Source: Verrucomicrobiota bacterium (GTDB taxonomy: Bacteria; Verrucomicrobiota; Verrucomicrobiia; Verrucomicrobiales; Akkermansiaceae). From it: a stretch of DNA of 64,000 nt. Below, one piece after another: positions 13,652 through 32,584 of this stretch. The DNA lies in assembly GCA_004293445.1 (NCBI GenBank), contig RDYP01000002.1, positions 1-64,000 of the forward strand. Direction: 5' to 3'. The notes beneath the pieces were generated by a model. It saw nothing but the letters and a program-made list of their open reading frames with translations. It had not been told where the DNA came from and made no database searches. Within the stretch, counting starts at the first letter, position 1; each line of letters begins with the position of its first letter. A program made the position numbers and the translations under genes.

Positions 13652-16600
13652 CTAACGGACGGACAGCCGGTAGAACCCGCGGGTGCCGCCCGGGGCGGCG
13701 GTGAAGCGGAAGCCCTGGACCGCGGGATCGGAGTCGTCGACCAACTGGACCTGGCCGTCCGCCGGGGTGCTGTCCCGCCACGACCCGGCGGCGAGGTCCG
13801 GGGATGTCTGCACGACCACCGTCAGATCGGTGGCGGCGCGGGAACGATTGAACCCGAAGGAGAACTCGGGAGACCCGGGGTGGAGGATCGGATCGCCCGA
13901 GGCGTCGCCGGCCTTGGGATCGGATCCGAGGGCGCGCTCGAGGAGGTTGGACGCGCCGTCATGGTCGGGATCGGCATCGTCGGCGGAATCGCCGCTGTTA
14001 TCGTAACTTGCGAAATTCGCAAACCGCCACGCTTCGGCGGGAGTGGCCGGCCCGCCACTGGCCACGATCAGGTTGCCGGGACCGGAGAAATGCAGCGGGT
14101 CGCGCGCCGCATTCCAGGTGCCTGGCATTCTCAGCGTGCCATCGACCTCGAGCCGCGCCACGGTTTCCGTGACGCCCGCGGCAAGGTGGATGCGGCCGCT
14201 GCCGGTGAGACGCAGGGCGGCGGTGTCTGCGATCGCGCCCGAGGCATTGCCGAGTTCGGCGATGGCTCCATTGGAAACGGTTAGATCGCCGCTGCCGAGG
14301 GTGCCGGTGACAGCGAGTGTGCCGCCGCTCACCGTGGTGCCGCCTTGATACGAGCTGGCCTGGCCGAGCGTGAGGGTGCCCGCGCCGGATTTCGTGAGAG
14401 CGCCGGGACCGGTGAGGCCGAGACCGAGGGTGATGGCAAAGCCGTTCGTGTCGATGCGGGCGCCACCACTCTGGACGACAGGTGCGGTGAAATCACCACC
14501 GGAGAAGCTGAGGAAGGCCGGGTTGTCCTGATTTGCCCGGACCAGCGTGCCATTGAAAAACAATCCGGTGAGCGAGCTGAGATAGGCGTGGGGACCATAA
14601 TTGATGCCTTTGGTGGTAAGCGTGCCGCCATTCAGTTTGACGCCCCAGGCTGTGGTGTTGCCCAGGATGCCATCGGCGACGGTGAGTTGGGCGCTGTCTT
14701 GAAGCGTGAGCGTGCCCCAGTCCGCGCTGGAGACGGTGCCGATGCCGGTCCCGCCGAGGCGCTTGGCGGAGATGACGCTGTTTCCGCCGATCACCAGCCC
14801 CGCGCGGCCGAGGCCGAGGTCGCCGGAAACCGTGATAGTGGCATCCGTGAAAGTCGATGTCGGCATCGTGGACTGGTCGCTGCCGCTCGCGCCCTGGATG
14901 GTGAGCGAGCCGGTGCTGAGCGAGCCGGGACCGGTGAAGGTGTAGGCCCCGTTGTTGCTGACCTTGCCGATGGAGACCGAAGAGGCTGTTAGCCCGCCTT
15001 CCAAGGTGATGGTCGATGGCGCGGCGCTGTTGGCGATGGTGGCGTTGCCCCCGGGCGACCAGCTCTCTCCCGACCAGTTGGCATCGGTGCCATTCCATTT
15101 TCCGGTGTTGGCTCCATTGTCCCAGGTGCGGGCTTCCGGCAGCACGAGCAGGCTGCCGGTGCCGGTGAACCAATCCGGATGCGTGGCCGCGCTGTAGGTG
15201 CCCGGTGCCTGGAGCACACCATCCAACAACAAGGCGGAAATCGTCTGGCTGCCGGAGAAATCCAGCGCCAGCGGCGAGCCTGCCGGAACCTCGACCACGG
15301 GGCCGAGCGTGACAGGCAGGGTTCCGGTGAAGGCATAAGTTCCCGCGCCGACGGCAAAGACCGCGTGGCGGTTTTCCATGCGCAGGAATTCAACGCCGGG
15401 GGCCGTGGCAGCGGGATTTCCCGACTCGGTGACCTCGCCAACCGCGCTGGCAGGCACATGGATTTCCCCGGAGCTGTTGGGTGGGATGGTGACATTGAGG
15501 GTGACGTTGAGACCCGCGCGCTGCCACTGGCAGGTGATGAGTCCGTAAGGGCCATCGTGGCTCGCATTGACCGAGGTGATGTCGCCTACCTCGGCCGGCT
15601 GGATGATGACGTTTTTGAATCCCGCTTGTGCCGGGTCCGGGCGGATGCCGGCGAGTCCTTGGTAGAGCCAATTGTCCGCCGAGGTGAAACACGAATGGAT
15701 CTGCGACCAATAGCCGTTCCATTGTTCCCACAGCGTGGTGGCACCCTGCTCGACCATGTAACCCCAGCCGGGATAGTCTTTCTTCTGATAGATGCCGAGG
15801 ATGAGATCGTCACGACCGATGTCATTGAGGAACTCCATCAGAAACATCGTTCCCAACATGCCTGTGTCGAGATGCCCGCTGTTTTTCTCCACGATGCAGC
15901 GCACGAGGTTTTCCAGCACCGCCGGCTGTTGAGCGGTGGGTGTGACGCCGACCATCAGCGGGAAGGCATAATAGATCTGCTCATCAATGATATAGCGGCT
16001 GTTCGTGGCGTCGAAATACTCGGCATGGATGGCATTGCTGATGGCTTGGGCGCGCTGGTTGGCGTGCGCCGCTTCGCTGGTGCGACCGAGGGCGGTGGAC
16101 ATTTTCCCGACCAGTTGCCAGAGGTGGATGCGGTAGCAGTTGCTGAAGAATTCGGCCATCCGTGAGCTTGGCCAATTGCTCGTGTCCATGCCACGACCGG
16201 GCGGCACCCAATCGCCGATGAACGAAAACCCGCTGCCCCAATCGCGCAGGACGTCATTGGTGGAGCGGCCGTCGAGGTATTCGCAATAGCTCCGCGCGGC
16301 ATCGATGTTTTCCTCGAGGATGGCGGGATTCCCGTAGTGCAGGTAATGCTGCCATGGGATGCGTGCGATGTTGCCCGGCCAGGGCGGGCCGCCGCCTGTC
16401 GGTTCAAAGGGTGGCGCAATGAAGGCAAGGGATTCGTTTTTCTTCTCCAAGGCCAAGCGCCAGTCCTCCACCCATTTGGTGTAGAAATTCGCGGCATTGA
16501 AACTCATCATCATGCCCTGGAGTGCGACCTGGCCGTCGCCGTAGCCCATGCGCTCGCGGTGCGGACAATCGACATAATAGGAGCCGAGGTTCAAGGCGCG

Positions 16601-18499
16601 CATCGTCCAGCGGTTCACCTGATGAATCCGGTTGAGCAGCGGATCCGATGATTCGAAAGCGCCCGCATCGGCGAGGTCGCTCTCGATGAGCATGGCGGTG
16701 GCATCCTCCAGGTTCGGTGCGGCATCGAGCCCCTCGACAACCACATACCGGAAGCCCGCGTAGTTGAACTTGTGGTGGAACTCCTCGTTGGCGCCGCCGG
16801 CGGAGATGAATTCGCTGGTCTGGTTGTAATTCTGATAGAGATTGAATCCACCGTCTAGGCGATCAAAGGAAACGCAGCTGCCCGTGTGGACGGAGATGTT
16901 GCCAATGGGCGAAGCCTGGATGCCATCGGGAAAGACGCGGTCGGCGAAGTGCATGCGCACCAACCTGCCTGCCGGGAGTGGCGGGAACTTCAATTGCAGC
17001 CAGCCGGTGAGGTTGGTGCCGAAGTCGATGACGTAACGCCCCCCGGCCAGCGCGGTGATTTCCTGAGCGGGGATGCGAGCGCCGATGCGGTTGAAGGGCG
17101 CGTAGTGATTGGCGGGCGGCCCTGCCGGGGCGGTGGTTTCCAGGACGTTCGACCACGAGCTGGTATCGAGTCCGGGCTCGCACCAGTCGGGCAGATGTGC
17201 GGCGGCATCGATGCGTTCTCCGCCGAAGTTTCCCCAGCTCCAGTTGCCGATGTGGCTGTAGCCGCTCGGGCGGGATTTCCAATCGAGGCCGGTGCCATAG
17301 GTGAAATTCGCCCCGCCCACCACCGCGTCGAGCTGGGCGCGCACGGCGACGCGCTCCGCCCACCCCTTCGACATCCAGAGCCCGAGGCAGTTTGTGCCTG
17401 ACCTGAGCAGGCGGGCAACGTCGTAGGTGACGGTGAAAGTCCGCGTCTTCGGATCGGAAACGGCGGGAGTGAGCACGTCATCGCCGGCCTTCTCGCCGTT
17501 GACGTAGAGCTCGAAGTAGGCGTGCGAATGGACCGTCACGATGGCCGATTCCGGTATGGATGAGAGGTCGAACTCACCCAGAAGCCACGGATCGGGAGAA
17601 TTCGTGCCGACGACCGAGCCCCACGGAGCGATCCCGTAGGCACCGAGCGAAAGCGCGGGGCTCCAGGAATCGCCATTCGTGCTCGCTTCCCAAGAGTTGT
17701 TGGTCGCCACCGTCAGCGGCTCGCCGGTGGCGAAGGTGAAGTCGAAACGCGCGATCAGACCGGCGGGGTTGGCTTCGGTGCCGCCATTGGTGGCGCCGAT
17801 GGAGATGCTGTTAGAACCGCTTTGCAGGGCGGAGGTGATGTTGGCGGCGACCGGCTGCGTCCATTCGGTGCCGGATGCCACCGGCTGGCCGTTGATGGTG
17901 AGCGTGAACGAATTGTCGGCGGTGATGCGGACCTTGGCCGAGATCAGCGTGCGATCGGTGGGCAGCGTGACGGTGCGGCGGAATTGCCTTGTGGCGGGCG
18001 GCGCGTTGCTGGCGGGATTTCCTTCGTTGAACCAGATCCACTCGGCCCCATCGAAGCCGCTGGCGGAATGCGCGATCCATGTGGCCGACCAATCGGCGGG
18101 ATGCAGCAATCCCATCGTCCATTGGGATGGCGTGCTCCATGCGGATGGATTGCCATCCTTGTCCCACACGCGGACCTTCCAGTGCGCGCGCTGGCGGGAA
18201 GCGAGCGCCGCTCCGGCGTAGGGGACGTGGAGCGATTGCTCGGAGTCCACCCGGCCGCTGTCCCAGAGATCCCCGGTGCCAGCGGCGAGTTGGGCGGCCG
18301 TCGAGGCGACGAGCACCTGGTAGGCCGTCTGCTTCTGGCCGCGGGTGTGCGTGTCGTCCGCGAGTTGCCAACCCAGCGTCGGCTGGACCAGATCCACGCC
18401 GACGGGAGCGACAAGGCCCTCGCAGCGGAGGTCGGTGACTTCAATCGCGCGGGCGAAAGAAATCAGGGCAAGAATCAAGGCGATCAGGGCGGGGCGCAT
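13652..18499 (-). CDS. Secreted GH78 alpha-L-rhamnosidase with beta-strand-repeat C-terminus
   Basis: A 1615-residue secreted enzyme. A signal peptide (1-18) is followed by the GH78 N-terminal Bac_rhamnosid_N-like region (LRCEGLVAPVGVD, WKVRVWDKDG), carbohydrate-binding beta domains, and the (alpha/alpha)6 catalytic domain. That domain carries VDCPHRERMGYGDGQ (candidate general acid Glu649) and ATTLWEQWNG (candidate base Glu925). It should release terminal L-rhamnose from glycans outside the cytoplasm. From about 1110 onward come autotransporter-associated repeats (GPGALTKSGAGTLTLG, GGTTVSGGTLAVTG) and a DPDHDGASNLLERALGSDP tail ending FYRLSVR. It diverges from the second GH78 gene, which has strong similarity across the catalytic part but lacks this extension. 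A TAGCCT hexamer six bases before the ATG suggests a leaderless message. Confidence 0.93.
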   Translation of the reverse strand: MRPALIALILALISFARAIEVTDLRCEGLVAPVGVDLVQPTLGWQLADDTHTRGQKQTAYQVLVASTAAQLAAGTGDLWDSGRVDSEQSLHVPYAGAALASRQRAHWKVRVWDKDGNPSAWSTPSQWTMGLLHPADWSATWIAHSASGFDGAEWIWFNEGNPASNAPPATRQFRRTVTLPTDRTLISAKVRITADNSFTLTINGQPVASGTEWTQPVAANITSALQSGSNSISIGATNGGTEANPAGLIARFDFTFATGEPLTVATNNSWEASTNGDSWSPALSLGAYGIAPWGSVVGTNSPDPWLLGEFDLSSIPESAIVTVHSHAYFELYVNGEKAGDDVLTPAVSDPKTRTFTVTYDVARLLRSGTNCLGLWMSKGWAERVAVRAQLDAVVGGANFTYGTGLDWKSRPSGYSHIGNWSWGNFGGERIDAAAHLPDWCEPGLDTSSWSNVLETTAPAGPPANHYAPFNRIGARIPAQEITALAGGRYVIDFGTNLTGWLQLKFPPLPAGRLVRMHFADRVFPDGIQASPIGNISVHTGSCVSFDRLDGGFNLYQNYNQTSEFISAGGANEEFHHKFNYAGFRYVVVEGLDAAPNLEDATAMLIESDLADAGAFESSDPLLNRIHQVNRWTMRALNLGSYYVDCPHRERMGYGDGQVALQGMMMSFNAANFYTKWVEDWRLALEKKNESLAFIAPPFEPTGGGPPWPGNIARIPWQHYLHYGNPAILEENIDAARSYCEYLDGRSTNDVLRDWGSGFSFIGDWVPPGRGMDTSNWPSSRMAEFFSNCYRIHLWQLVGKMSTALGRTSEAAHANQRAQAISNAIHAEYFDATNSRYIIDEQIYYAFPLMVGVTPTAQQPAVLENLVRCIVEKNSGHLDTGMLGTMFLMEFLNDIGRDDLILGIYQKKDYPGWGYMVEQGATTLWEQWNGYWSQIHSCFTSADNWLYQGLAGIRPDPAQAGFKNVIIQPAEVGDITSVNASHDGPYGLITCQWQRAGLNVTLNVTIPPNSSGEIHVPASAVGEVTESGNPAATAPGVEFLRMENRHAVFAVGAGTYAFTGTLPVTLGPVVEVPAGSPLALDFSGSQTISALLLDGVLQAPGTYSAATHPDWFTGTGSLLVLPEARTWDNGANTGKWNGTDANWSGESWSPGGNATIANSAAPSTITLEGGLTASSVSIGKVSNNGAYTFTGPGSLSTGSLTIQGASGSDQSTMPTSTFTDATITVSGDLGLGRAGLVIGGNSVISAKRLGGTGIGTVSSADWGTLTLQDSAQLTVADGILGNTTAWGVKLNGGTLTTKGINYGPHAYLSSLTGLFFNGTLVRANQDNPAFLSFSGGDFTAPVVQSGGARIDTNGFAITLGLGLTGPGALTKSGAGTLTLGQASSYQGGTTVSGGTLAVTGTLGSGDLTVSNGAIAELGNASGAIADTAALRLTGSGRIHLAAGVTETVARLEVDGTLRMPGTWNAARDPLHFSGPGNLIVASGGPATPAEAWRFANFASYDNSGDSADDADPDHDGASNLLERALGSDPKAGDASGDPILHPGSPEFSFGFNRSRAATDLTVVVQTSPDLAAGSWRDSTPADGQVQLVDDSDPAVQGFRFTAAPGGTRGFYRLSVR

Positions 18500-18505
18500 T
18501 GAGAC

Positions 18506-18552
18506 AGGCTATCCGAAGCACCGGATTCCGCATGTCGCATGAACATGCGACG
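18506..18552 (-). promoter_or_regulatory. Palindromic operator (copy a) and -10 box of the GH78 gene at 13652-18499
   Basis: TGTCGCAT-GAAC-ATGCGACG at 18533-18552 contains a perfect 8-2-8 inverted repeat (18534-18551). On the minus strand TAGCCT (18506-18511) follows after exactly 21 bp and precedes the ATG by six bases. The operator centre would be near -43.5, a class II activator position. It is one of four copies in the locus. Confidence 0.75.
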
Positions 18553-18625
18553 CGCGGGGTGCGGGAGGAATTCTTGATGGATCGCGGGTGCCGCCCGTGG
18601 GTAGGGTTCCCGGACCGCGGAGCGC

Positions 18626-18645
18626 TGTCGCATGTTTATGCGACA
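18626..18645 (+). promoter_or_regulatory. Palindromic operator (copy b) before the GH78-kinase-regulator operon
   Basis: TGTCGCATGTTTATGCGACA is a perfect 8-4-8 inverted repeat ending 59 bp before the ATG at 18705. The best -10-like hexamer, TAAGGT (18688-18693), is 42 bp downstream, about two helical turns farther than in the other copies. This would fit an activator bound further upstream. Confidence 0.72.
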
Positions 18646-18704
18646 CTTCCCGTCCGGGGTTTTTGCAGCAAATCCCCGCCGGGTCCGTAAGGTCTGCCGC
18701 GCCC

Positions 18705-21608
18705 ATGATCCGATTCCACCATCGACTGGTCCAAGGAGTTCTCGCCCTGCTCCTGTCATCCCGCCTCATCGCGGCCGGCATGCAGCCGGTCGATCTCCGC
18801 TGCGAAGCGTCCACGAACCCGCTCGGCATCGACCAGCCCCGGCCGGGCCTCGGCTGGAAGCTCGCATCCGACGCGCCAGGCGCCACCCAGAGCGCCTATC
18901 AGATCGAGGTCTCCGGCGTGTGGGACAGCGGCAAGGTGACGTCCGACGCGTCGGTCGCCATCCGCTACGGCGGTCCCGCGCTGGAATCGGACAGGACCTA
19001 CAACTGGCGGGTCCGCGTGTGGGACGGCGCGGGCCGGCCGTCCCCGTGGAGCGCGACCGCGCGCTGGACGACGGGCAAGCTCCGGCCCGCCGATTGGTCG
19101 GCCACGTGGATCGGCGCGCCGGAAAGCTCCGTCGCGCCGGACTTGGAAGGCGTCGAAGTCACCCGCGCGCTCTACCGCACCACCGACGGCCGGGTTGAAA
19201 AGGACGTGACCGATCTGATGCGGCGCGCGGTCGGAGAGAAGAGGCTGCCCTTCATCGTCGACTTCAACGCCCTCGGCGGCGATCCCGCGCCGAACGTGGT
19301 CAAGGAGCTGCGCGTCGAGTACCACAAGGAGGGCAAATCCCTCGTATCACGGGCCGAAGACTTCCGCCCTCTGTCGATCCCCCCGCTGCCGCCGGATAAC
19401 GCCGCGCCGTGGTTTCGCGGCGAGTTCGACCTGCCGGCCGCGCCCGCTTCCGCGACCGTCACGGTGCACTCCCACGCCTACTTCGAACTCCACGTCAACG
19501 GCGCCAAGGCCGGCGACGACGTCCTGACCCCGGCGGTCGCCGATGCGAAATCCCGGACCTTCACCGTCACCTACGACGTCGCCCGCCTGCTCAAGCCCGG
19601 CCGGAACTGCCTCGGCCTGTGGATGTCCAAGGGTTGGGCGGAGCGCGTCGCGGTGCGCGCCCAGCTCGACGCCGTGGTCGCGGGAAAGAAGTTCACCTTC
19701 GGCACCGGCCCGGGCTGGAAGACGCTCGCCAGCGGCTACAGCCACATCGGCATGTGGCACTGGGGCGACTTCGGCGGCGAGCGGATCGACGCCGCGCACC
19801 ACCGGCCCGACTGGTGCCGGCCCGGCCTCGACACCTCGTCGTGGGCCGATGCCGTGGAAGCCCCCGCCCCGCCCGGAGCTCCCGCCAATCTCACCGGCCC
19901 GCACAACCGGATAGGCGAGCGCATTCCCGCAAAGAAGGTCACCGCGCTGGCCGACGGCCGCCACGAGATCGACTTCGGCACCAATCTCACTGGCTGGCTC
20001 CACTTGAAGTTCCCGCCGCTCAAGGCAGGACAAACGGTCCGCCTGCATTTCGCCGACCGGGTCTTCCCCGACGGCGTCCACGGCTCGCCGATCGGCGACA
20101 TCACGGTCCACTGCGGCAGCTGTGTTTCCTTCAAGCGCCAGGACGGCGGCCAAAGCCTCTATCAGACCTTCAAGCAGACCAGCGAGTTCGTCGCCGCCGG
20201 CATCCCGGGCGAGGACTTCCAGCACAAGTTCAACTACGCCGGCTTCCGCTACGTCGTCGTCGAAGGCCTCGACACCGCGCCGCGCGTCGCCGACGCTACC
20301 GCCCTTCTGGTCGAGAGCGACCTCGCCGATGCCGGCTCCTTCGAGTGCTCCGACCCGCTGCTCAACCGGATCCACCGCGTCAACCGCTGGACGATGCGCG
20401 CCCTGAATCTCGGCGGCTACTACGTCGACTGCCCGCACCGCGAGCGCATGGGCTACGGCGACGGTCAGGTCGCCCTGCAGGGCATGATGATGAATTTCGA
20501 CGCCGCGGAATTCTACGCCAAGTGGGCCCGCGACTGGCGCCTCGCCCTCGACCGCAAGCACGAGCACCTGCCCTACATCGCTCCGCCCTTCGAGAAGACC
20601 GGCGGCGGCCCGCCCTGGCCCGGAAACATCGTCCTCATCCCGTGGCAGCACTTCCTCCACTACGGCGATCCCGCCATCCTCGAGGAAAACCTCGCCGCCG
20701 CGCGGAGCTACTGCGAGTATCTCGACGGCCGCTCGCCCGGCGACGTCCTGCGCGACTGGGGCGGCGGCTTCACCTTCATCGGCGACTGGGTCCCGCCCGG
20801 CCGCGGCATGGACACCAACAACTGGCCGAGCTCCCGGATGGCCGAATTCTTCTGCAACTGCTACCGCGTCCACCTCTGGCAGATCGTCGGCAGGATGGCC
20901 GGCGCGCTCGGCCGCAAGGACCAAGCGGAACACGCCCGCCAGCGCGCGGACGCCATCGGCCGGGCCACCCACGCCACCTACTTCGATCCGGTGGAGAAGC
21001 GCTACGTCGCCGACGAGCAAATCTACTACGCCTTCCCCCTGAAGGTCGGCGTCACGCCGGAGGCCGAGCGCGCCGCGGTGCTGGCGAATCTCGAACGCTG
21101 CATCGTGGAAAAGAACAAGGGCCACCTCGACACCGGCATGCTGGGCACCCCGCTGCTGATCGAATACCTCCAGGAAATCGGCCGCGACGACCTGATCCTC
21201 GGCATCTATCAGAAAAGGGACCACCCCGGCTGGGGCTACATGATCGAGCAAGGCGCGACCACCCTGTGGGAACAATGGAACGGCCACTGGTCGCAGATCC
21301 ACTCCTGCTTCACCTCCGCCGACAACTGGCTCTACCAAGGCCTCGCCGGCATCCGCCCGGACCCCGCCAAGCCCGGCTTCAAGAACGTCATCATCAAGCC
21401 CGCCGTCGTCGGCGACATCACCTGGGTGAAAGCCCACCACGACGGCCCCTACGGCCGCATCTCCAGCCACTGGCAGCGCGACGGCGACCGGCTCCGCCTC
21501 GACCTCACCATCCCGCCGAACAGCAGCGCCACCGTCGTCCTGCCCGGCAAGGCGCCGCAACAGGTCGCCGCCGGCAGCCACCGCCTCCACGCCACGCTGC
21601 GGGAATGA
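18705..21608 (+). CDS. Secreted GH78 alpha-L-rhamnosidase
   Basis: A 967-residue enzyme with signal peptide (about 1-24, GVLALLLSSRLIAAG). An N-terminal beta domain (LRCEASTNPLGIDQPRPGLG, WRVRVWDGAG) is followed by binding domains and the GH78 catalytic domain with VDCPHRERMGYGDGQ (Glu580) and ATTLWEQWNG (Glu856). The C-terminal beta domain contains HHDGPYGRI and IPPNSSATVVLPG, a common GH78 ending. It acts on alpha-L-rhamnosides outside the cytoplasm. It is first in an operon with the glycosidase-like kinase (25 bp downstream) and its regulator. An in-frame start upstream at 18588 would put the operator inside the gene; ATG 18705 directly precedes the signal peptide. An unidentified insert (about 145-230) distinguishes it from the divergent paralogue. 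Confidence 0.93.
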   Translation: MIRFHHRLVQGVLALLLSSRLIAAGMQPVDLRCEASTNPLGIDQPRPGLGWKLASDAPGATQSAYQIEVSGVWDSGKVTSDASVAIRYGGPALESDRTYNWRVRVWDGAGRPSPWSATARWTTGKLRPADWSATWIGAPESSVAPDLEGVEVTRALYRTTDGRVEKDVTDLMRRAVGEKRLPFIVDFNALGGDPAPNVVKELRVEYHKEGKSLVSRAEDFRPLSIPPLPPDNAAPWFRGEFDLPAAPASATVTVHSHAYFELHVNGAKAGDDVLTPAVADAKSRTFTVTYDVARLLKPGRNCLGLWMSKGWAERVAVRAQLDAVVAGKKFTFGTGPGWKTLASGYSHIGMWHWGDFGGERIDAAHHRPDWCRPGLDTSSWADAVEAPAPPGAPANLTGPHNRIGERIPAKKVTALADGRHEIDFGTNLTGWLHLKFPPLKAGQTVRLHFADRVFPDGVHGSPIGDITVHCGSCVSFKRQDGGQSLYQTFKQTSEFVAAGIPGEDFQHKFNYAGFRYVVVEGLDTAPRVADATALLVESDLADAGSFECSDPLLNRIHRVNRWTMRALNLGGYYVDCPHRERMGYGDGQVALQGMMMNFDAAEFYAKWARDWRLALDRKHEHLPYIAPPFEKTGGGPPWPGNIVLIPWQHFLHYGDPAILEENLAAARSYCEYLDGRSPGDVLRDWGGGFTFIGDWVPPGRGMDTNNWPSSRMAEFFCNCYRVHLWQIVGRMAGALGRKDQAEHARQRADAIGRATHATYFDPVEKRYVADEQIYYAFPLKVGVTPEAERAAVLANLERCIVEKNKGHLDTGMLGTPLLIEYLQEIGRDDLILGIYQKRDHPGWGYMIEQGATTLWEQWNGHWSQIHSCFTSADNWLYQGLAGIRPDPAKPGFKNVIIKPAVVGDITWVKAHHDGPYGRISSHWQRDGDRLRLDLTIPPNSSATVVLPGKAPQQVAAGSHRLHATLRE

Positions 21609-21633
21609 ATTCCGCCCGCGCTCCCTTCTTCCC

Positions 21634-24501
21634 GTGATCCGACTTCCCTCCATGCTTTCCGGCACCGCGGTATGGTTCGTCCTGTGCGCGGGTGCCCTCC
21701 CCGTCCGCGCCGGCGACCCGCCCGGCCCGCGGCTGGCGGACGACGGCCGCTCGCTGGAGCTCCGCCCGCCTGGACTCCCGCCCCTCGATTGCCGCTGGGC
21801 GGCCACCATCGGACGCGATGGCAAGCGATGGACCCTTGCCCCGGACGGCGGCGGACCGGACCGCGCGCCCGAAGTCCGCGAATCCTCCCCGACCGGCCTG
21901 ACTTGGGTGCTCGGCTTCCCGGAACAAGGAGCCGAACTGTGGTTCCGCGTCCGGCTGGAGGAAGGTTCCGTCTGGTGCGCGCGCGCCGGGGTGCGGAACA
22001 GCGGCGACGAAGCCTTCCAGCTCTTCGACACCACCCCGCTCCAAGCCAACCTGCGGCTCGGCGATCCCGGCGGCTGGCTGCTGACCGGCCTCCACCCGCG
22101 GACCCCGGTTCTCGCCGCAGCGCCCGGCCCCGGCGCGGAAGTCCGGATCCACGAGCACGGTTCGCTTTACCGCCCGGACGGCCTCGGCTTCGTCTTCGGC
22201 CCGGTCGGCGATCCGGTCACCCACGCGGAGTTCACTTGGAAGCCCGGCGCGGCGGACCTCGTGACGATGACCGCGGTCACGCCGATGGACGGCGTGCGGG
22301 TCGAACCGGGCGAAACCCGCTGGGGGCAGGAGGTTGCGATCCTGCCCGGCGAGCCCCGCGCCGCGATCGGACGATGGGCCGCGATGGTCGCCCGCTCCCA
22401 CGGCGCGCTCCTCGGCGCCGGCGCCCTGTCCGGCTGGAACAACTGGAACTACCTCGCCAAAAAAGACGTCCGCCGCGAACTGCTGGAAGTCGTCGATGTC
22501 GTCCGCGATTCCTCCGGCCGTCTGCGGCCCGGGGTCGTCCAGATGGACTACAACTACTCCGACTCCGAGCTCAAGAGCGCCCTCTCCTCCGACTGGGTGC
22601 CCGATTACCGCGACCGCGTCGGCCAGCTCGGCGCCCGCTTCGGCACCCATATCGGAGTCGGCGGTCCGGGCTGGCCGGGGCTCGCCGGTCTGCCCGAACT
22701 GACCGCCACCGTCACCCGCGCGGTCGCCGCCGGCCTCACCTACCTGAAGGTCTTCTACCCCGCCTCCCGCGCCGCCAGCGACGGCCGCCGCACCGCCTTC
22801 GAGGTCTATCGCGACGACTGGTCCGCCATCCGCCGCGCCGCGGGCGAGGCCGCATATCTGCTGTTCTGCGACTACGAACCCCACCGCGCCGCCATCGGGC
22901 GGGTCGATGCCAGCCGCGTCGGCCCCGACGCCGACCGCGGCAAGGTCAGCCGGGCCATCCCCTCGTTCCTGCGCTCCCTGCCGCTGCACGACCGCTGGTT
23001 CGCGATCGACGGCGACAGCTACTTCACCGGCACCGACATCGCCAACATCAGCCGCATCGAGGGCAGCTGGCCGCTGGTCCGCACCTGGCTGAGCATGACC
23101 GGCCTCTCCTGCGGTGCCGCCATCACGTCCGACCCCTGGTATTGGGACGATTTGAAGCCCTACTGGCGGAACGTCGAAATCCTCACCCCGCCGGCCCGCG
23201 AACGCACCGAGGTGATGGATCTGGGCACCGACAAGGAATGGCCGCGCCTGCTCGGCCACGTCCGCCGCGACTGGGGGCGCTTCACCGTGGCCCTGCTGTG
23301 GAATCCGGCCGCGACCGAGCGCACGGTCACGCTCGACTTCGCCAAGGCCGGCATGGACCCGGCGCAACGCTACGCCGTGTGGTCCTTCTGGGACGACCGC
23401 TACCTCGGCGTCGCCCAGGGTTCCTGGACCACCCCGCGGCTCGGCCCCGCCGCCTCCCAGCACCTGGTCTTCACCGCCCTCGACCCCGCCCCGGAACGAC
23501 CGGTGCTGATCGGGTCAAACCTCCACATCTACTGCGGTGCCGCCGAGATCCGGCAGCTCGCCAGCGACCGCGATTCGCTGTCCATCGACCTCACCGACGC
23601 CGGCGCGCGGGACGGAGACCTCTACCTCTACAGCCGCCTCCAGCCCATCCTCGCCGCCGCCTCCGGCTGCACCGTCAGCGGCATCACCAGCGCCGGCGAA
23701 AACGTCTGGCGCCTCAGCCTCCACGACCGCCGCCCCGGCGCGCCTCAGCGCATCGAACTCGCCATCCAGCTCCCCGCCAACCGCCAGCCCTGGTTCTGGA
23801 TCCTCATCGCCACCGTGGCCCTCAGCCTGCTCTTCGCCGCCTGGCGCTACGTCGTCGGCCTGCGCCTCGAACGCGCCCTCGCCCTCGACCGCGAACGCGC
23901 CCGCATCGCCCGCGACATCCACGACGACCTCGGCGCCAGTCTCACCCACATCGCCCTCCTCGGCGAACTCGCCCAGAACGACATCGACCGCCCGGAGCGC
24001 GCCCGCGTCCACGTCGACGACATCTTCCGCGCCGCGTGCAAGCTGACCCGCTCGGTCGACGAGATCGTCTGGGCCCTCAATCCCTCCAACGACAGCATCC
24101 CCCGCTTCGCCGCCTACGTCGGGGACTTCACCCAGGAATTCCTCCAGTCCGCCGACATCGGCTGCCGCCTGTCCATCCCCGCCGACCTGCCCGGCCGCCC
24201 GCTGCCGCCGAAGGTCCGCCACGAGCTCTTCCTCGCCATCAAGGAGGCGCTCCACAACATCGTCTCCCACGCCGCGGCTTCCTCCGCCCGCCTGGAAATC
24301 TCGATGCGCGGGGACCACCTGCGCGTCTTGATCGCCGACGACGGCCGCGGATTCGACCCCGCCTCGCCCGCCCCCGGCCGTCCCGGCGGCGGACACGGCC
24401 TTGCCAACCTCCGCCAACGGATGCAGGAAGTCGGAGGATCCTTGGAAATCCTCAGCTCGCCCGGCGGCGGGACCACCGTCGTGCTCGAAGTGAAACCATG
24501 A
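21634..24501 (+). CDS. Histidine kinase with alpha-galactosidase-like ectodomain
   Basis: A 955-residue predicted membrane sensor. A signal peptide (about 1-26) precedes a beta-rich region (30-245) and a segment (about 260-620) resembling GH27/GH36 alpha-galactosidases: GALSGWNNWNYL, VVQMDYNYSD, LTYLKVFYP, GAAITSDPWYWDD and VALLWNP. In active enzymes the nucleophile is the Asp of K-x-D; here the site reads K372-V-F374, so hydrolysis is unlikely, while SD at 499-500 may match the acid region. A second beta domain leads to one membrane helix (719-741). The cytoplasmic part is HisKA_3 (ARIARDIHDDLGAS, His763) plus an ATPase (Asn875, DDGRGFDP, GHGLANLRQRM). It presumably binds a glycan outside and phosphorylates the overlapping regulator. 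The start is GTG 21634; ATG 21652 is an alternative. Confidence 0.88.
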   Translation: MIRLPSMLSGTAVWFVLCAGALPVRAGDPPGPRLADDGRSLELRPPGLPPLDCRWAATIGRDGKRWTLAPDGGGPDRAPEVRESSPTGLTWVLGFPEQGAELWFRVRLEEGSVWCARAGVRNSGDEAFQLFDTTPLQANLRLGDPGGWLLTGLHPRTPVLAAAPGPGAEVRIHEHGSLYRPDGLGFVFGPVGDPVTHAEFTWKPGAADLVTMTAVTPMDGVRVEPGETRWGQEVAILPGEPRAAIGRWAAMVARSHGALLGAGALSGWNNWNYLAKKDVRRELLEVVDVVRDSSGRLRPGVVQMDYNYSDSELKSALSSDWVPDYRDRVGQLGARFGTHIGVGGPGWPGLAGLPELTATVTRAVAAGLTYLKVFYPASRAASDGRRTAFEVYRDDWSAIRRAAGEAAYLLFCDYEPHRAAIGRVDASRVGPDADRGKVSRAIPSFLRSLPLHDRWFAIDGDSYFTGTDIANISRIEGSWPLVRTWLSMTGLSCGAAITSDPWYWDDLKPYWRNVEILTPPARERTEVMDLGTDKEWPRLLGHVRRDWGRFTVALLWNPAATERTVTLDFAKAGMDPAQRYAVWSFWDDRYLGVAQGSWTTPRLGPAASQHLVFTALDPAPERPVLIGSNLHIYCGAAEIRQLASDRDSLSIDLTDAGARDGDLYLYSRLQPILAAASGCTVSGITSAGENVWRLSLHDRRPGAPQRIELAIQLPANRQPWFWILIATVALSLLFAAWRYVVGLRLERALALDRERARIARDIHDDLGASLTHIALLGELAQNDIDRPERARVHVDDIFRAACKLTRSVDEIVWALNPSNDSIPRFAAYVGDFTQEFLQSADIGCRLSIPADLPGRPLPPKVRHELFLAIKEALHNIVSHAAASSARLEISMRGDHLRVLIADDGRGFDPASPAPGRPGGGHGLANLRQRMQEVGGSLEILSSPGGGTTVVLEVKP

Positions 24502-25145
24502 GTCGAAAACCCCCAGCCAACGCCCTTTCCGTCGCCGTCGTCGAGGACGACCCGCGCGTCCGGCGCAGCCTCGTCGAGATCCTCGCCCAGGACCCCGGCT
24601 GCGTTTGCGCGGGCGACTACGCCAGCGGCGAGGACGCGCTCGCCGGCCTGGCGGAACAACCCGCCCGCGTGGTGATCATGGACATCCACCTTCCCGGCAT
24701 CACCGGCGTGGAATGCGTCGCCCGACTCGCCCCGCTCTGTCCGGACACCCAGTTCATCATGCTCACCGTGGCCAAGGACACGGACAACCTGTTCAACGCC
24801 CTCGCCGCCGGAGCCGCCGGCTACCTGCTCAAGCCGGTGCGGGCCAAGGAACTGCTCGCCGCGATCCGGGACGCCCACCAGGGCGGCGCGCCGATGACCA
24901 GCAGCATCGCCCGCCAGGTCGTCGCCGCCTTCCACCGCAAGCCGGCATCACCCTGCGAGGAATCCCTCTCCGACCGCGAACAGGAGGTCCTCCGCCTCCT
25001 CTCCGAAGGCCTCCTCTACAAGCAGGCCGCGGCCGAGATGGGTGTCAGCGTCAACACGCTGTGCGAATACATCCGCCGGATCTACCGCAAGCTCCAGGTC
25101 CACTCGCGGCAGGAAGCCATCGAGCGCTACCGCCGGCGCGGATGA
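24498..25145 (+). CDS. LuxR/NarL-family response regulator
   Basis: A 215-residue regulator. The receiver domain has VVEDDPR (acidic pair), phosphoacceptor Asp62 in VVIMDIHLPG, Thr in MLTVAKD and Lys in YLLKPVR. The LuxR-type HTH starts at LSDREQEVLRLLSEG; its recognition region reads VSVNTLCEYIRRIYRKLQV, where most relatives have TVKxHxxxI. The start ATG overlaps the kinase stop (ATGA), so the two are translationally coupled partners. The most economical target is the palindrome found four times around it, including upstream of its own operon, implying autoregulation; this is inference. Copy c of the palindrome begins 13 bp after its stop. Confidence 0.93.
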   Translation: MSRKPPANALSVAVVEDDPRVRRSLVEILAQDPGCVCAGDYASGEDALAGLAEQPARVVIMDIHLPGITGVECVARLAPLCPDTQFIMLTVAKDTDNLFNALAAGAAGYLLKPVRAKELLAAIRDAHQGGAPMTSSIARQVVAAFHRKPASPCEESLSDREQEVLRLLSEGLLYKQAAAEMGVSVNTLCEYIRRIYRKLQVHSRQEAIERYRRRG

Positions 25146-25157
25146 GGCGCGGCGCGG

Positions 25158-25205
25158 TGTCGCATGCTTATGCGACACGACAGGTCCAACGACTTGGCAT
25201 AGTCT
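25158..25205 (+). promoter_or_regulatory. Palindromic operator (copy c) and -10 box of the long beta-repeat gene
   Basis: TGTCGCATGCTTATGCGACA (25158-25177) is a perfect 8-4-8 inverted repeat. TAGTCT (25200-25205) lies 22 bp downstream and 50 bp before the ATG at 25256. No T-tract follows the palindrome, so it is not a terminator for the preceding regulator gene. Confidence 0.75.
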
Positions 25206-25255
25206 CTCGAGCTCTTAGCACTGGAAATCCATCTCGTTCCAAGCGCCGCAATCTC

Positions 25256-27961
25256 ATGAAACCCTCCATCCGCAATCCCTTCGTCGTCCTCGCCCTGTCC
25301 GCCTGCTTCGTTGCCGCCGCCCGCGCCCAAAGCACCCTCCTTGCCGACAACTTCACGGTGACCGGCACGCCCGGCACCTCGGACGTCAATTTCAACCTCG
25401 CCGGCCGCCAGTCCGGCACCCAGGCCCCCGGCACCTGGACCACCAGCGGCAACGTCCAGGCCGGCAACAACTACGCCGGCTTCGGCCAGCCCACCGGCGA
25501 TTTCCTGCTGGTGGCGGACGGCGGGGCGAACGCCCGCCTCGACGGCCTCGTCCTCAGCTCCGCCCTGGTCGGCCCGAACGAGAAGCTGGTCGTGAGCTTC
25601 AAGGCCGACACCGTCGTCGAGTACGGAGACGCCTCGAACTGGATGAGCTTCATGATCAGCCCCTCTTCGGCCTCCGGCCTTTGGCACCCAGTGGTCGGCT
25701 CCGGCGACTTCGGCATGCTGATCCGCGGCAACGGCCAGGTCCAGGCCTTCAACAACGGCGTGGTCATACCCGGCATGAACAACGTCTCCCTCGCCAGCTC
25801 GGCGATCAACACCATCACCCTCACCTTCAGCGGAGCCGATGGCGCCGGCTCGCCCTTCGCCGGCAATGGCACCCTGGCGGTCATTTCCGACGGCACCAAC
25901 TCCTGGTCCACCACTCTCGATACCGGTTTCACCACCGAAACCATCAGCTTCGGCAGCGCCGCCAACGGCGTGCGCGGCTTCGTCGACGACCTGAGCGTCA
26001 CCACCGAACCCTCCTTCCCGCTCGGCCGCTGGAGCGGCGAAACGAACGGAACCTGGGACGCCTCCACTGTGAACTTCTCCGGCAAGTCGTTCACACAGAT
26101 GAAGATCGACGGCACCACCACCGCCACCTTCGCCGACATCGACGGCAGTGGAAATCCGGTGAGCGTGAACGACCTGACCGTGGCCCCCGGCGGCGCGGAG
26201 ATCGCAGAGGTGGCCTTCACCAACAATTCCGTCGACTACACGCTGAACAGCGCCGACACCAGCGGCATCACGGGAGCCACCAACCTGTCGAAGAGCGGCT
26301 CCGGCCTGCTCACCCTCGCCGGCGAGAACTCCTACTCCGGCACCACGACCATCAGCAACGGCACACTCGCCCTCTCCGGCGGCGACAACCGCCTGCCCGT
26401 CGCCACCGCCCTTACCCTCGCCAGCCCCGGCGTGCTCCGCCTCGATGGCAACAACCAGGAGGTCGCCGGCCTCGCCGGCAACGGCCGGGTGGTGAACGGC
26501 AACGCCACCCCCGCCACCTTCACGGTCAGCAACAGCGCCGCCGCCACCTTCTCCGGCAATCTTGGCGGCCCCGGCACCGACGAAAACAATCTGGCGCTGG
26601 TCAAGAGCGGTGCCGGCACGCTGAACCTCACCGCCGCCAGCAGCCACACGGGCGGCACCAGCATCGCCGACGGCACCCTCTCGCTGAACCTCGAGCCCGC
26701 CGGCTTCGCGAACAACGCGATCGGTCCCGCCACCTCGAGCAACATCGTCACCATCGACAACGGCGGCGTCCTCACCAGCGACGGCTTCCGCAACAACTGG
26801 CTCGGCAACACCGGCGTCGCCTCCGGCGGCGCCAACGCCGTCTCCGTCGTCGTGAATGCCGGCGGCACGCTCAAGGGCGCCACCAACCGCATCACCGGCC
26901 TCGGCAACGTCAACCTCAACGGCGGCACCATCGAGGTGTCCGACGGTCTGACCGGCTTCGGCTGGTTCGCCTCGTTCAACCTCGGCGGCGATCTCACCGT
27001 CGGCGGCAGCGTCCCCTCGTCCATCACCACGTCCCTGGGCGCCGGAGCCTCCGCCAACTTCCAGCTGGCGGACGGCGCCAACAGCACTTCCGGGGGCGGC
27101 ACCCGCACCGTCACCGTCGCCGATGTCACCGGCGACGCCGCTCCCGACCTGCTGGTCGGCGCCCGCCTGTCCAACGGCACGCTGTTCAAGGATGGCACGG
27201 GCACCGTGGAGATCACCGCCGGCGCGTCCGGCACCGGTTCCCCGGTCAGCTGGGAAATCAACGCGGGCGCCTTCGTACTCGCCAACGCCACCCCCTTCGA
27301 GTTCCGCGTGAACAACACCGGCTCGAACCGGGTCTTCGAAGCCTCCGGCGGCAACGGCTCCGCCACCTTCAACGGCATCCTCGACATCGACACCAGCGCC
27401 GTGACCCTCACCACCGGCGCGATCTGGTCGCTCATCGACGTCGCCGGCCTCGGCGTCGGCTTCGGCCCCAACTTCTCCGTCGCCGGTTTCGCCGGGCCGG
27501 ACCTCAACGGCAACTGGACCAAGACCGACACCGTCGGCAACTGGTCCTTCTCCCCGACCACCGGCGAGCTGACGCTCGACGTCGGCAGCGACTACGACAC
27601 CTGGAAGGACGACAACAACGTTACGGGCGGCGAAAACGACGACGACGACAACGACGGCCTGACCAACTTCGAGGAATACGCCTTCGGTCTCGACCCGCAA
27701 AGCGGCGCGTCCTCCGGCCCCATCACCACGGCCCTCGACAAGACCGCCAGGACCTTCAGCTACACCCGCCGCGACTCGACGCTCACCGACCTCGCCTATT
27801 CGGTCTGGTTCTCGACCAATCTGACCGACTGGACCGAGGACACCGACGCCACCGAGAACGCCGTGCTGAACGGCGAAGTCGAAACCGTGGAAGTCACGCT
27901 TTCCAACGCCGCCGGCAACCCGCTCCCGGGCCGCCTCTTCGTCCAGGTCCGCGCCAACTGA
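25256..27961 (+). CDS. Long secreted beta-strand-repeat surface protein
   Basis: A 901-residue protein with signal peptide (about 1-23, ending ARAQ). Residues about 25-250 form a lectin-like beta module (LLADNFTVTG, NYAGFGQPTGDFLLVAD, VVGSGDFGMLIRGNG, RGFVDDLSV). It is closely related to the whole of the next protein. Autotransporter-associated repeats follow (LSKSGSGLLTLAGENSYSG, LVKSGAGTLNLTAASSHTGG). It ends with the tail DDDDNDGLTNFEEYAFGLDP, SYTRRDSTLTDL and LFVQVRAN. There is no C-terminal barrel, so it is not a self-contained autotransporter. It may bind or display glycan-related ligands outside the cell. The reading begins at ATG 25256, in frame with the signal peptide; the frame is open far upstream but overlaps the regulator. 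Function unproven. Confidence 0.88.
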   Translation: MKPSIRNPFVVLALSACFVAAARAQSTLLADNFTVTGTPGTSDVNFNLAGRQSGTQAPGTWTTSGNVQAGNNYAGFGQPTGDFLLVADGGANARLDGLVLSSALVGPNEKLVVSFKADTVVEYGDASNWMSFMISPSSASGLWHPVVGSGDFGMLIRGNGQVQAFNNGVVIPGMNNVSLASSAINTITLTFSGADGAGSPFAGNGTLAVISDGTNSWSTTLDTGFTTETISFGSAANGVRGFVDDLSVTTEPSFPLGRWSGETNGTWDASTVNFSGKSFTQMKIDGTTTATFADIDGSGNPVSVNDLTVAPGGAEIAEVAFTNNSVDYTLNSADTSGITGATNLSKSGSGLLTLAGENSYSGTTTISNGTLALSGGDNRLPVATALTLASPGVLRLDGNNQEVAGLAGNGRVVNGNATPATFTVSNSAAATFSGNLGGPGTDENNLALVKSGAGTLNLTAASSHTGGTSIADGTLSLNLEPAGFANNAIGPATSSNIVTIDNGGVLTSDGFRNNWLGNTGVASGGANAVSVVVNAGGTLKGATNRITGLGNVNLNGGTIEVSDGLTGFGWFASFNLGGDLTVGGSVPSSITTSLGAGASANFQLADGANSTSGGGTRTVTVADVTGDAAPDLLVGARLSNGTLFKDGTGTVEITAGASGTGSPVSWEINAGAFVLANATPFEFRVNNTGSNRVFEASGGNGSATFNGILDIDTSAVTLTTGAIWSLIDVAGLGVGFGPNFSVAGFAGPDLNGNWTKTDTVGNWSFSPTTGELTLDVGSDYDTWKDDNNVTGGENDDDDNDGLTNFEEYAFGLDPQSGASSGPITTALDKTARTFSYTRRDSTLTDLAYSVWFSTNLTDWTEDTDATENAVLNGEVETVEVTLSNAAGNPLPGRLFVQVRAN

Positions 27962-27972
27962 AGCCGTCGTCC

Positions 27973-28019
27973 TGTCGCATGTTCATGCGACAGGACAAAG
28001 CCCGCCCGTTCGCTAGACT
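27973..28019 (+). promoter_or_regulatory. Palindromic operator (copy d) and -10 box of the PEP-CTERM gene
   Basis: TGTCGCATGTTCATGCGACA at 27973-27992, extended to a 10-4-10 inverted repeat by flanking CC/GG. TAGACT (28014-28019) follows after 21 bp, and the ATG at 28052 is 32 bp further on. Because it lies 12 bp after a stop it could be mistaken for a terminator, but no T-run follows and the other copies precede genes. Confidence 0.75.
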
Positions 28020-28051
28020 CCCCGCTTCCCAACCTTCCCCGTTCCTGACCC

Positions 28052-28867
28052 ATGAAAGCAAAAACCTCCCTCGCCACCGCCCTGCTCGGACTCTCCGTCG
28101 CCGGACCCGCCGGCGCCGCGTTGATCCTTTCCGACAACTTCACGGACACCACCCCGGGCGACACCTACCAACAGGTCAACGAGAACCTCTCCACCCGGCA
28201 GGCCGGCTCGCAGGCGACGCAGATCTGGAGCGGGGCGGGCAATTACCAGGTGGGCAACAACTACCCCAATTTCGGCCAGCCCACCGGCGACTTTCTCCTG
28301 ATCGCGGACCAAGCCGGAAACGCGCGCCTCGACAGCTTGTTCCTGAATTCTTCCCTGGTTCCAAGCAATGAGATGCTGGTGATCCGGTTCGACACGGACA
28401 CCCACATCGAATACGGAGACCCTTCGAACTGGTTGAGCTTCATGATCAGTCCATCGGCCGGCGATGGGACCTGGCATCCGGTGGTCGGCTCGGGCGACTT
28501 CGGGATGTTGATCCGCGGCAACGGCCAGATCCAAGCCTTCAACAACGGCGCGGTCGTCGGCGGGATCAACAATTTCTCCCTGGCCAGCGCCGGCATCAAC
28601 ACCATCACCCTCACCTTCAGCGGCCTCGACGGCACCGGCTCGCCCTTCGCGGGCAACGGCACCCGGGTCAACATCTCCGATGGCACCAATTCCTGGAATG
28701 CCAACCTCGATACCGGCCTGACCACCGAAACCATCAGCTTCGGGACTTTCGGAAACGGCACCCGCGGTTTCGTGGACAACCTCTCGATCTCCACCGTCCC
28801 CGAGCCGGCCGTCTCCCTCCTCGGCGGCCTCGGCCTGCTCGCCCTGCTGCGCCGCCGGCGCCCGTGA
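28052..28867 (+). CDS. PEP-CTERM surface protein, short partner of the 901-aa protein
   Basis: A 271-residue exported protein. A signal peptide (1-22) is followed by one beta module closely matching the N-terminal module of the preceding gene (NYPNFGQPTGDFLLIAD, VVGSGDFGMLIRGNGQIQAF, TLTFSGLDGTGSPFAGNG, RGFVDNLSIS). The C-terminus is a classical PEP-CTERM signal: VPEP, a hydrophobic run and LLRRRRP. Such signals are cut by an exosortase, which is not in the window, and the protein is then placed at the surface or in extracellular matrix. The gene has its own copy of the palindromic operator, so it is probably co-regulated with, but transcribed separately from, the long protein. Confidence 0.92.
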   Translation: MKAKTSLATALLGLSVAGPAGAALILSDNFTDTTPGDTYQQVNENLSTRQAGSQATQIWSGAGNYQVGNNYPNFGQPTGDFLLIADQAGNARLDSLFLNSSLVPSNEMLVIRFDTDTHIEYGDPSNWLSFMISPSAGDGTWHPVVGSGDFGMLIRGNGQIQAFNNGAVVGGINNFSLASAGINTITLTFSGLDGTGSPFAGNGTRVNISDGTNSWNANLDTGLTTETISFGTFGNGTRGFVDNLSISTVPEPAVSLLGGLGLLALLRRRRP

Positions 28868-30568: not shown

Positions 30569-32584
30569 ATGTTCCCTTCCCGCCTCATCGCCGCCTGCTG
30601 CCTCATCCTCGCAGCCCCCACCGCAGTCGGCCAAATCCGCAGCCTTGCGGAACTCCGGGCCCTACCGCTCAAGATCGCATCCTCCCGCGTGCCAGTGGAA
30701 GTCGAGGGCACCACACTGTATTCCGACCTCACGACCGGAGCGCTGATCGTGCACGATGGCAACGCCGCATGTTACATCGAACTTTGGCAGAATCCTCGCC
30801 CACAGGTCGGTGATCGGGTGCGACTCGCCGGCCACTCCAACGCTCCGGGCTACCTGCCTCACCTCGTCGTCCCCCAGCTGGAAATCCTCGGCCGCGGGGA
30901 CCTGCCCAAACCCCACCTCCTCGCACCGGGAGAAATCCATCAGCCACAATTCGACACCGGCTGGGTCGAAGTCCCAGCCCTCGTCACCGGCGTGGAAAGC
31001 GGCGGCCTCGCCTACACCCTCGCCGTCGAAATCTACGGCCAAACCTTCAAGGCCGACATCCCCCTGACCCCGGACGCCGTCGATCGCGCCGCGCGACTGA
31101 TGCAGCGCCAGGTCCGCATGACCGCCGTCCTCGCGACCGTTTACAACGAAAAGCGCCAAATGACGGGCCGCCACTTCTTCGTACCTTCCTTCGATCACCT
31201 CGTCCTCGATGGACCCGACATCGACCCCTCCACCCCACGCCCGTTGAAGATCGCCGACATGCTCGTCAGCGACAACAGCCCCACCGATCTCATCCGCATC
31301 GAAGGCACCATCACCCAGCTCGATCCCAAAGGCTTCCACCTCCGCGACTCCTCCGGCAGCACCCTCGTCATCACCCCGTCGCGCCACGAACTCCAAGCCG
31401 GAGCACGCGTCGTGATCGATGGCTTTGGCACCATCTCCCCCTTCCGCCCCGTCCTTCGCGCCATCACGGTGACAAAAACCGGCCAAAGCGCACCGCCCCC
31501 GGCCTTGCCCATCGACTTTCACCCCAAAGACGGGCCCAACCAACACCTCGAACTCGTCCACCTCAAAGCAGAATACCTCGGCCTCCGTACCGCGAAAGAC
31601 GAGGCCATCCTTCAATGCCGCAGCGGGAACGATATCTTCGAGGCCATCCTCCCGCTGCCCTCTCCCCAACACCCCAAACTCATCCCCGGCGACCAACTCG
31701 CCCTCACCGGCATCTGCGAACTCATCACCAATCACCCCCTGCCACGTCTCGAATGGGTCACCGGCTTCAGGCTCCAACTCGCCGATAGCTCCGCCATCCA
31801 AATCCTCCACCGCGCCCCATGGTGGAACACCCGCCGTCTCCTCATGGCCCTCGCCGCGACCAGCGGCACCGCAATGATCTTCGGCTCCGGCGTCTTCGCC
31901 CTCCGCCGCCGGGTCAAAAAACAGGTCGGCATCATCACCGCCGAACTCGAAAAACGCGCCGTCGCCACCGAACGCGAACGCATGGCCCGCGACCTCCACG
32001 ACACACTCGAACAGCAACTCACCGGCGTCGCCATGCAACTCGAAAGCCTCGCCCACTCCCCCCACCAGAAATCCCCCGTCGTCGCCGAACGCCTGAACCT
32101 CGCCAGCCGAATGCTCCGCCACTCCCGCGAAGAGGCGCGACGCTCCGTATGGGACCTCCGCAACCGGATGCTCGAAATCCACGGCCTCGGGCACACCCTC
32201 CACAGCCTCGCCAGCGCCGCCTTGGTCGACGATGGACCGCGGATCGATGCCTTCGTCGACACTTCCCCCACCGGCCTCAGCCCCGGCACCGACTACCAAC
32301 TCCTCCGCATGGCCCAGGAGGCTCTCACCAACGCCCTCAAACACGCCGCTGCCTCGCACATCACCCTCACCCTCTCCCTCGCCGCCGACCATTGCCTCCT
32401 CAGCGTGAAAGACGACGGCATCGGCTTCGACCCCCTCATCGTCAATCCGCACCAAGCCCCCCACTTCGGGCTGCTCGGCCTCCGCGAGCGCGCGGAAAAA
32501 ATCGGTGCCACCCTTACCATCAGCACCCAACCCGGCGAAGGCTGCGCCGTCAGCATCAAAGTCCCAATCCCCAACGCATCTTGA
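30569..32584 (+). CDS. Sensor histidine kinase (HisKA_3 type) with OB-like ectodomain
   Basis: A 671-residue membrane kinase. A signal peptide (1-21) is followed by a periplasmic region of about 395 residues that looks like three repeats of a small beta-barrel unit (VEVEGTTLYSD..GALIVHDG; IRIEGTITQLDPKGFHLRDSSG; LVHLKAEYLGLR..AILQCRSG), reminiscent of OB-fold modules. One helix (about 421-446) crosses the membrane. The cytoplasmic part has RMARDLHDTLEQQLTG with phosphorylated His477, an ATPase with EALTNALKHA and DDGIGFDP, and HFGLLGLRERAEKIG. It is coupled to the overlapping regulator gene. The ligand is unknown; downstream surface-protein genes suggest an envelope or polymer signal. Confidence 0.9.
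   Translation: MFPSRLIAACCLILAAPTAVGQIRSLAELRALPLKIASSRVPVEVEGTTLYSDLTTGALIVHDGNAACYIELWQNPRPQVGDRVRLAGHSNAPGYLPHLVVPQLEILGRGDLPKPHLLAPGEIHQPQFDTGWVEVPALVTGVESGGLAYTLAVEIYGQTFKADIPLTPDAVDRAARLMQRQVRMTAVLATVYNEKRQMTGRHFFVPSFDHLVLDGPDIDPSTPRPLKIADMLVSDNSPTDLIRIEGTITQLDPKGFHLRDSSGSTLVITPSRHELQAGARVVIDGFGTISPFRPVLRAITVTKTGQSAPPPALPIDFHPKDGPNQHLELVHLKAEYLGLRTAKDEAILQCRSGNDIFEAILPLPSPQHPKLIPGDQLALTGICELITNHPLPRLEWVTGFRLQLADSSAIQILHRAPWWNTRRLLMALAATSGTAMIFGSGVFALRRRVKKQVGIITAELEKRAVATERERMARDLHDTLEQQLTGVAMQLESLAHSPHQKSPVVAERLNLASRMLRHSREEARRSVWDLRNRMLEIHGLGHTLHSLASAALVDDGPRIDAFVDTSPTGLSPGTDYQLLRMAQEALTNALKHAAASHITLTLSLAADHCLLSVKDDGIGFDPLIVNPHQAPHFGLLGLRERAEKIGATLTISTQPGEGCAVSIKVPIPNAS

Follow-up and report, generated by a model that had tools for sequence, protein, structure and literature searches.

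A four-copy palindrome as the predicted operator set of a two-component system with a glycosidase-like sensor in a verrucomicrobial glycan locus

The window considered here is a stretch of 64,000 nucleotides from a bacterium of the family Akkermansiaceae (Verrucomicrobiota). It contains neighbouring genes for two rhamnosidases, a two-component system and surface proteins:

13652-18499, minus strand: GH78 alpha-L-rhamnosidase with a C-terminal passenger (PATR) repeat (Pfam Bac_rhamnosid6H, E 8e-76; PATR, E 7e-10); proposed target of operator copy a
18705-21608, plus strand: second GH78 alpha-L-rhamnosidase (Pfam Bac_rhamnosid6H, E 6e-79); first gene of the inferred GH78-kinase-regulator operon
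21634-24501, plus strand: histidine kinase with a GH36-like extracytoplasmic domain, an extra beta domain, one transmembrane helix and HisKA_3 and HATPase_c domains
24498-25145, plus strand: NarL/FixJ-type response regulator (Response_reg, E 2e-23; GerE, E 1e-14) with recognition helix SVNTLCEYIRRIY; proposed DNA-binding partner
25256-27961, plus strand: secreted surface protein with PATR repeats (Pfam PATR, E 2e-15)
28052-28867, plus strand: PEP-CTERM surface protein (Pfam PEP-CTERM at the gathering score)

In the inferred operon, the second GH78 gene is followed by a 25-bp gap and the kinase gene, which overlaps the regulator gene by 4 bp. The regulator has a receiver domain and a C-terminal GerE/LuxR helix-turn-helix, which place it in the NarL/FixJ family. 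The kinase is of the HisKA_3 type, with HisKA_3 and HATPase_c domains, and its His763 is conserved in 37 of the 37 kinase-bearing members of its family. Just downstream, at window positions 30569-33198, there is a second pair consisting of a HisKA_3 kinase and a LuxR-type regulator. This pair precedes a further PATR surface protein (33367-37314), and its sensor part is unlike the GH36-like one. The GH78 targets, together with a GH95-like target in another genome described below, suggest that the glycan involved contains rhamnose and fucose. Such hydrolases are present in most of the freshwater Verrucomicrobia genomes studied by He et al. 2017 (PMC5615132).

The locus also carries a 20-bp palindrome, TGTCGCAT-N4-ATGCGACA. 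An earlier note on this DNA had reported four copies and no further full copy in the window, and a mismatch search bears this out:

18533-18552, no strand: operator copy a, one mismatch
18626-18645, no strand: operator copy b, exact
25158-25177, no strand: operator copy c, exact, 12 bp past the regulator stop codon
27973-27992, no strand: operator copy d, exact, 12 bp past a stop codon

All four copies are intergenic and all four are upstream of genes. Copies a and b are between the divergent GH78 genes, c follows the regulator stop codon and precedes the first surface-protein gene, and d is between the two surface-protein genes. A scan of the window with up to three mismatches returned these four copies and one three-mismatch match at 2552; the chance expectation at this threshold is 0.24, and five matches were reached in 0 of 100 shuffles. 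The genome-wide search that the earlier note proposed has now been run, and its reading came through: the four locus copies, all upstream of genes, are the only matches with up to two mismatches in the whole 3.35-Mb assembly (97% complete). Of the proposed targets, the GH78 and surface-protein genes each have a copy upstream; the kinase and regulator genes, which were also on the list, are reached by copy b only by way of the inferred operon.

Hexamers resembling promoter elements lie beyond the copies:

18506-18511, minus strand: -10-like TAGCCT, 21 bp from operator a and 6 bp ahead of the ATG at 18499
18688-18693, plus strand: -10-like TAAGGT, 42 bp from operator b
25177-25182, plus strand: -35-like ACGACA, sharing its first base with the end of operator c; by sequence comparison, relatives have an NTGACA-like element here
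25200-25205, plus strand: -10-like TAGTCT, 22 bp from operator c
27992-27997, plus strand: -35-like AGGACA, sharing its first base with the end of operator d, by sequence comparison
28014-28019, plus strand: -10-like TAGACT, 21 bp from operator d

For copies a, c and d, the distances of 21, 22 and 21 bp had been noted before and can be read directly in the sequence. The best -10 for copy b had been put at 42 bp, where TAAGGT is indeed found. GH78 genes in two other genomes have kept this distal geometry (42 bp in the window, 43 in genome G135 and 42 in G168). It is also present, at 43 bp, ahead of a gene in G135 that was assigned by eye to a GH95-like family. Counting the hexamer's first base as -12 gives an operator centre of -43.5 for an offset of 21 and of about -64.5 to -65.5 for offsets of 42-43. 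In class II activator promoters of the LuxR type, the operator is centred about 40 to 45 bp upstream of the transcription start, and centres near -43.5 or -64.5 are typical activator positions at class II and class I promoters, respectively. A literature search on LuxR class II positions gave nothing. The -10-like hexamers of the locus are at the distance expected for such a position, and relative to the predicted transcription starts most of the operators would have a class II placement near -43.5.

Related loci have the same spacing. The commonest offset is a TANNNT hexamer starting exactly 21 bp past the 20-bp site, which occurs at five of the 12 class I sites (these come from three genomes with linked, co-inherited loci and are not statistically independent) and at 14 of the 20 class II sites, which belong to a paralogous system with another operator. 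Here, class I and class II regulators are recognition-helix classes, distinct from the promoter classes. The centre near -43.5 claimed earlier is reproduced at these sites. Neither peak was reached in any of 5000 shuffles, and elsewhere in these stretches TANNNT has a background rate of 0.3% per position. A -35-like element (NTGACA in class I, TAGGCA in class II) overlaps the last base of the operator and is separated from the hexamer by a 16-bp spacer. The site at 27025 in G135 and two sites on contig C281 have no clear TANNNT at either a 21-type or a distal offset, the distal promoters have no clear -35, and a consensus sigma-70 scan of the region called no promoter. Only 6 bp separate TAGCCT from the ATG of the minus-strand GH78 gene, whose mRNA is therefore predicted to be leaderless; distal-type promoters are predicted to leave leaders of just 5-8 bases or so.

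Members of the kinase family were found at 44 Verrucomicrobia loci. The genomes are mostly metagenome assemblies and are labelled for the most part Akkermansiaceae or Verrucomicrobiaceae, with some Terrimicrobiaceae and Spartobacteria. A NarL-type regulator directly follows the kinase in nearly all of the loci that reach far enough. The window genome itself (G000) has three complete kinase-regulator pairs, on contigs C21, C1 and C4.

Recognition helices and operators display a consistent pattern across these loci. For example, the class I helix SVNTL[CR]EYIRRIY (the window, G135 and L068/G168) goes with TGTCGCAT-N4-ATGCGACA, and in a second genus this palindrome is upstream of orthologous and related genes in eight copies with at most one mismatch. 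The class II helix SVYTVNFHIRNIY goes with the operator ACCCGTTAAAATGTGCGGGT. This operator was first found in G013, was predicted by helix match and then located in the C1 locus of the window genome, and was later also found in L080, L083 and L089. The C4 pair and its G013 counterpart (helix SWHTVHNHIRHIY) have ATGGCCAATTTATGGCCAAT in common; this class IV element is a direct repeat with a -10-like hexamer near 32 bp and is therefore recorded as tentative. SYWTVQ-type regulators have TGTCCCTT-N4-AAGGGACA-like sites in common. The single-locus variants TGTCGGAT-N4-ATCCGACA (L096) and TGTCAGAT-N4-ATCCGACA (L108), which likewise have a hexamer at 21-22 bp, point to an outer TGTC/GACA that the sites have in common and an inner tetrad that varies. 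The comparison implies that the same recognition helix goes with the same operator and another helix with another operator, in several classes and across genera.

The element AGCGTCGGTC-N3-GACCGTCGCT was considered as a class III operator and dropped because similar elements are present in loci of other helix classes; the sites of the SYWTVQ-type regulators fit better. This element and its variants recur after genes (L037, L038, L039, L078, L099 and L105) and look like a dispersed REP-type element. The paralogue operators escaped a de novo search for palindromes with exact arms. A mismatch-tolerant search limited to noncoding DNA found the C1 operator of G013, and its false leads were poly-C in contig C14 of G013 and tandem repeats of about 130 bp in contig C1 of G000. 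The latter repeat is present in about four copies at 384833-385300 (L041), in a gap between genes that converge, next to the C1 paralogue locus. Locus L087 has TTCCAATSATTGGAA palindromes in pairs about 32 bp apart (450/483, 5363/5395, 12083/12115 and 13212/13244), one of them directly 3' of the regulator stop codon; they are candidates for the operator of another member of the family, in a different format.

The association can also be followed at the genome level. Two or more class I palindromes (at most one mismatch) are present in only three of 260 genomes of the family, G000, G135 and G168, with four, eight and two copies, and these are the same three where a class I regulator turned up. 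A single isolated copy is present in each of two further genomes, and neither of these copies has a hexamer at 21 bp. With up to two mismatches allowed, the class II operator is present only in G000, G013, G096, G151, G158 and G169 of the 260, which are exactly those with a class II regulator; because the loci are co-inherited, such co-occurrence shows association and not independent events. As far as sequence comparison goes, the recurrence of the palindrome in a second genus and its tracking of the regulator support the regulon interpretation of the earlier note, and the palindrome is very probably a private landing site of the neighbouring two-component regulator.

The sensor part of the kinase is missed by Pfam searches with single sequences, except for a weak Melibiase_C match, and the window kinase returns only HisKA_3 and HATPase_c. 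Its homologues align over all 955 residues, and an N-terminal profile of the family matches the GH36 alpha-galactosidase of Thermotoga maritima (GalA) with E 2e-16. An AlphaFold2 model of the kinase (mean pLDDT 86) gave best E values of 3e-21 to 1e-18 against GH36 structures in Foldseek and aligned with 5m0x in VIA-align with Z 25.6 over 443 residues (rmsd 3.3); the fold match covers about residues 30-616. By profile and structure comparison, the extracytoplasmic part of this verrucomicrobial kinase family has the GH36 alpha-galactosidase fold, which consists of an N-terminal beta domain, a TIM barrel and a C-terminal beta domain.

We take D327 and D387 to be the catalytic residues of T. maritima GalA, and residue roles in the sensor alignment are based on them. 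The mutation D387A is named in structure entry 6gwf. The window kinase has Phe374 at the nucleophile position and Asp432 at the acid/base position, that is, one of the two aspartates of a GH36 enzyme. Both catalytic aspartates are present in none of the 37 kinase-fused members, whereas two of two kinase-less relatives (L106 and L109) have them. Since no sampled kinase-fused member has both, the domain is probably a receptor, and the sensor is probably a retired glycosidase that serves to recognise a glycan. The open papers searched gave no account of this kinase family and nothing relevant on glycosidase-kinase fusions. A third GH36-kinase relative in G013, L038 (G013:C14:127343-129244), is beside two intact ones and is broken by two TGA codons and one TAA codon.

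The palindromes might instead act at the RNA level, as hairpins in untranslated regions (at mRNA ends, in attenuators or as REP-like elements), and not as protein-binding DNA. They are perfect inverted repeats with a 4-base loop, and copies c and d, each 12 bp past a stop codon, give good RNA folds, of -14.5 and -21.9 kcal/mol. However, the stem comes without a T-run, and no terminator was called at the sites. In addition, many shuffled versions of the class II element fold at least as well as the element itself (z -1.1), yet it has the same 21-bp TANNNT distance, and the elements are restricted to genomes with the matching regulator. The spacing, the poor folding of class II and the genome distribution led us to reject this explanation, which we regard as extremely improbable.

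Another regulator of the genome could bind the sites while the adjacent response regulator acts elsewhere; there are eleven other response-regulator matches in the genome, and binding by the adjacent one is a prediction. This is very improbable, given that, for several helix classes and across genera, a class-specific operator lies near the genes of that class, and that at the genome level the regulators of classes I and II co-occur exactly with their operators. The adjacent regulator might also act at the sites as a repressor, since position alone is no proof of activation and the operator touches the -35 region. We find this quite improbable: activator sites are typically centred near -43.5 or -64.5, the operators leave the -10 and the start uncovered, and the -35 elements are weak, as they are at activator-dependent promoters.

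The reading that we prefer, and consider highly likely, is that the two-component system encoded between the four palindromes uses them as its operators and that they mark an activator-driven, locally confined glycan regulon. The kinase would expose its GH36-like domain, with the nucleophile lost, outside the inner membrane as a glycan receptor, and on ligand binding it would phosphorylate the NarL-type regulator, which would then dimerise on the palindrome. At most of the promoters the operator would abut a weak -35, with the -10 starting 21-22 bp beyond and the centre at about -43.5 to -44.5, for class II activation. At the GH78-kinase-regulator operon it would be about two helical turns farther out, at about -64.5, a class I position. 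The regulon would be confined to the locus and take in the sensor genes, which is why positive feedback is proposed. Sister systems of the same genome use different operators and so would be insulated from one another at the DNA level.

On a broader scale, we lean towards the view that the Verrucomicrobia have a large family of receptor kinases derived from retired GH36 glycosidases, each with a regulator whose recognition helix fits an operator of its own. This operator would often have the form TGTC-xxxx-N4-xxxx-GACA, in which the inner tetrad varies, and would lie at a constant distance from the promoter. Together the pairs would be naturally diversified, insulated glycan switches from which a protein-DNA recognition code could be read. 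How glycan use is regulated in the Verrucomicrobiota, degraders of rhamnose- and fucose-rich polysaccharides, is little described. If the proposal is true, operator class would predict the gene membership of glycan loci straight from genome sequence, and the paralogue set would make both the DNA-level insulation of sister two-component systems and the change from enzyme to receptor directly testable.

The system resembles several known ones. Like the class I/II two-component systems of the NarL/FixJ (LuxR) type, it has a HisKA_3 kinase, a regulator with Response_reg and GerE domains, and inverted-repeat operators of about 20 bp at activator positions. Unlike typical systems of that type, it has a glycosidase-fold sensor and several paralogous pairs with private operators; no description of operators of this regulator family was found. 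The hybrid two-component systems of polysaccharide loci in Bacteroidota likewise serve a glycan-responsive local regulon with hydrolases and surface proteins, a responsiveness that would apply here by inference. Those hybrids have beta-propeller sensors and are one polypeptide. In contrast, the kinase (21634-24501) and the regulator (24498-25145) described here are separate genes, with no kinase and response regulator joined in one polypeptide, and the sensor is GH36-like. T. maritima GalA (GH36, PDB 1zy9/5m0x) shares the catalytic-domain fold and sequence motifs with the sensor, but in the window protein the nucleophile Asp is replaced by Phe374 and a kinase is fused.

The RsgI/SigI systems of Clostridium thermocellum (PMC4711584) also have an extracytoplasmic glycoside-hydrolase fold of much reduced activity that acts as a polysaccharide sensor, and they include several paralogues with their own promoters and autoregulation, which here would be inferred. 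For example, RsgI6 has a GH10 fold with very low activity and has retained carbohydrate binding (PMC4711584). The two systems differ in that RsgI/SigI pairs an anti-sigma factor with a GH10 fold and its cognate sigma factor, whereas the system described here has kinase and receiver domains in place of an anti-sigma domain and sigma factor, and a GH36-like fold. RsgI6 is the nearest known parallel for the sensor. A glycan regulon that is insulated at its locus, takes in its own sensor genes and is under a histidine kinase derived from a retired glycosidase would be a variation on these known systems.
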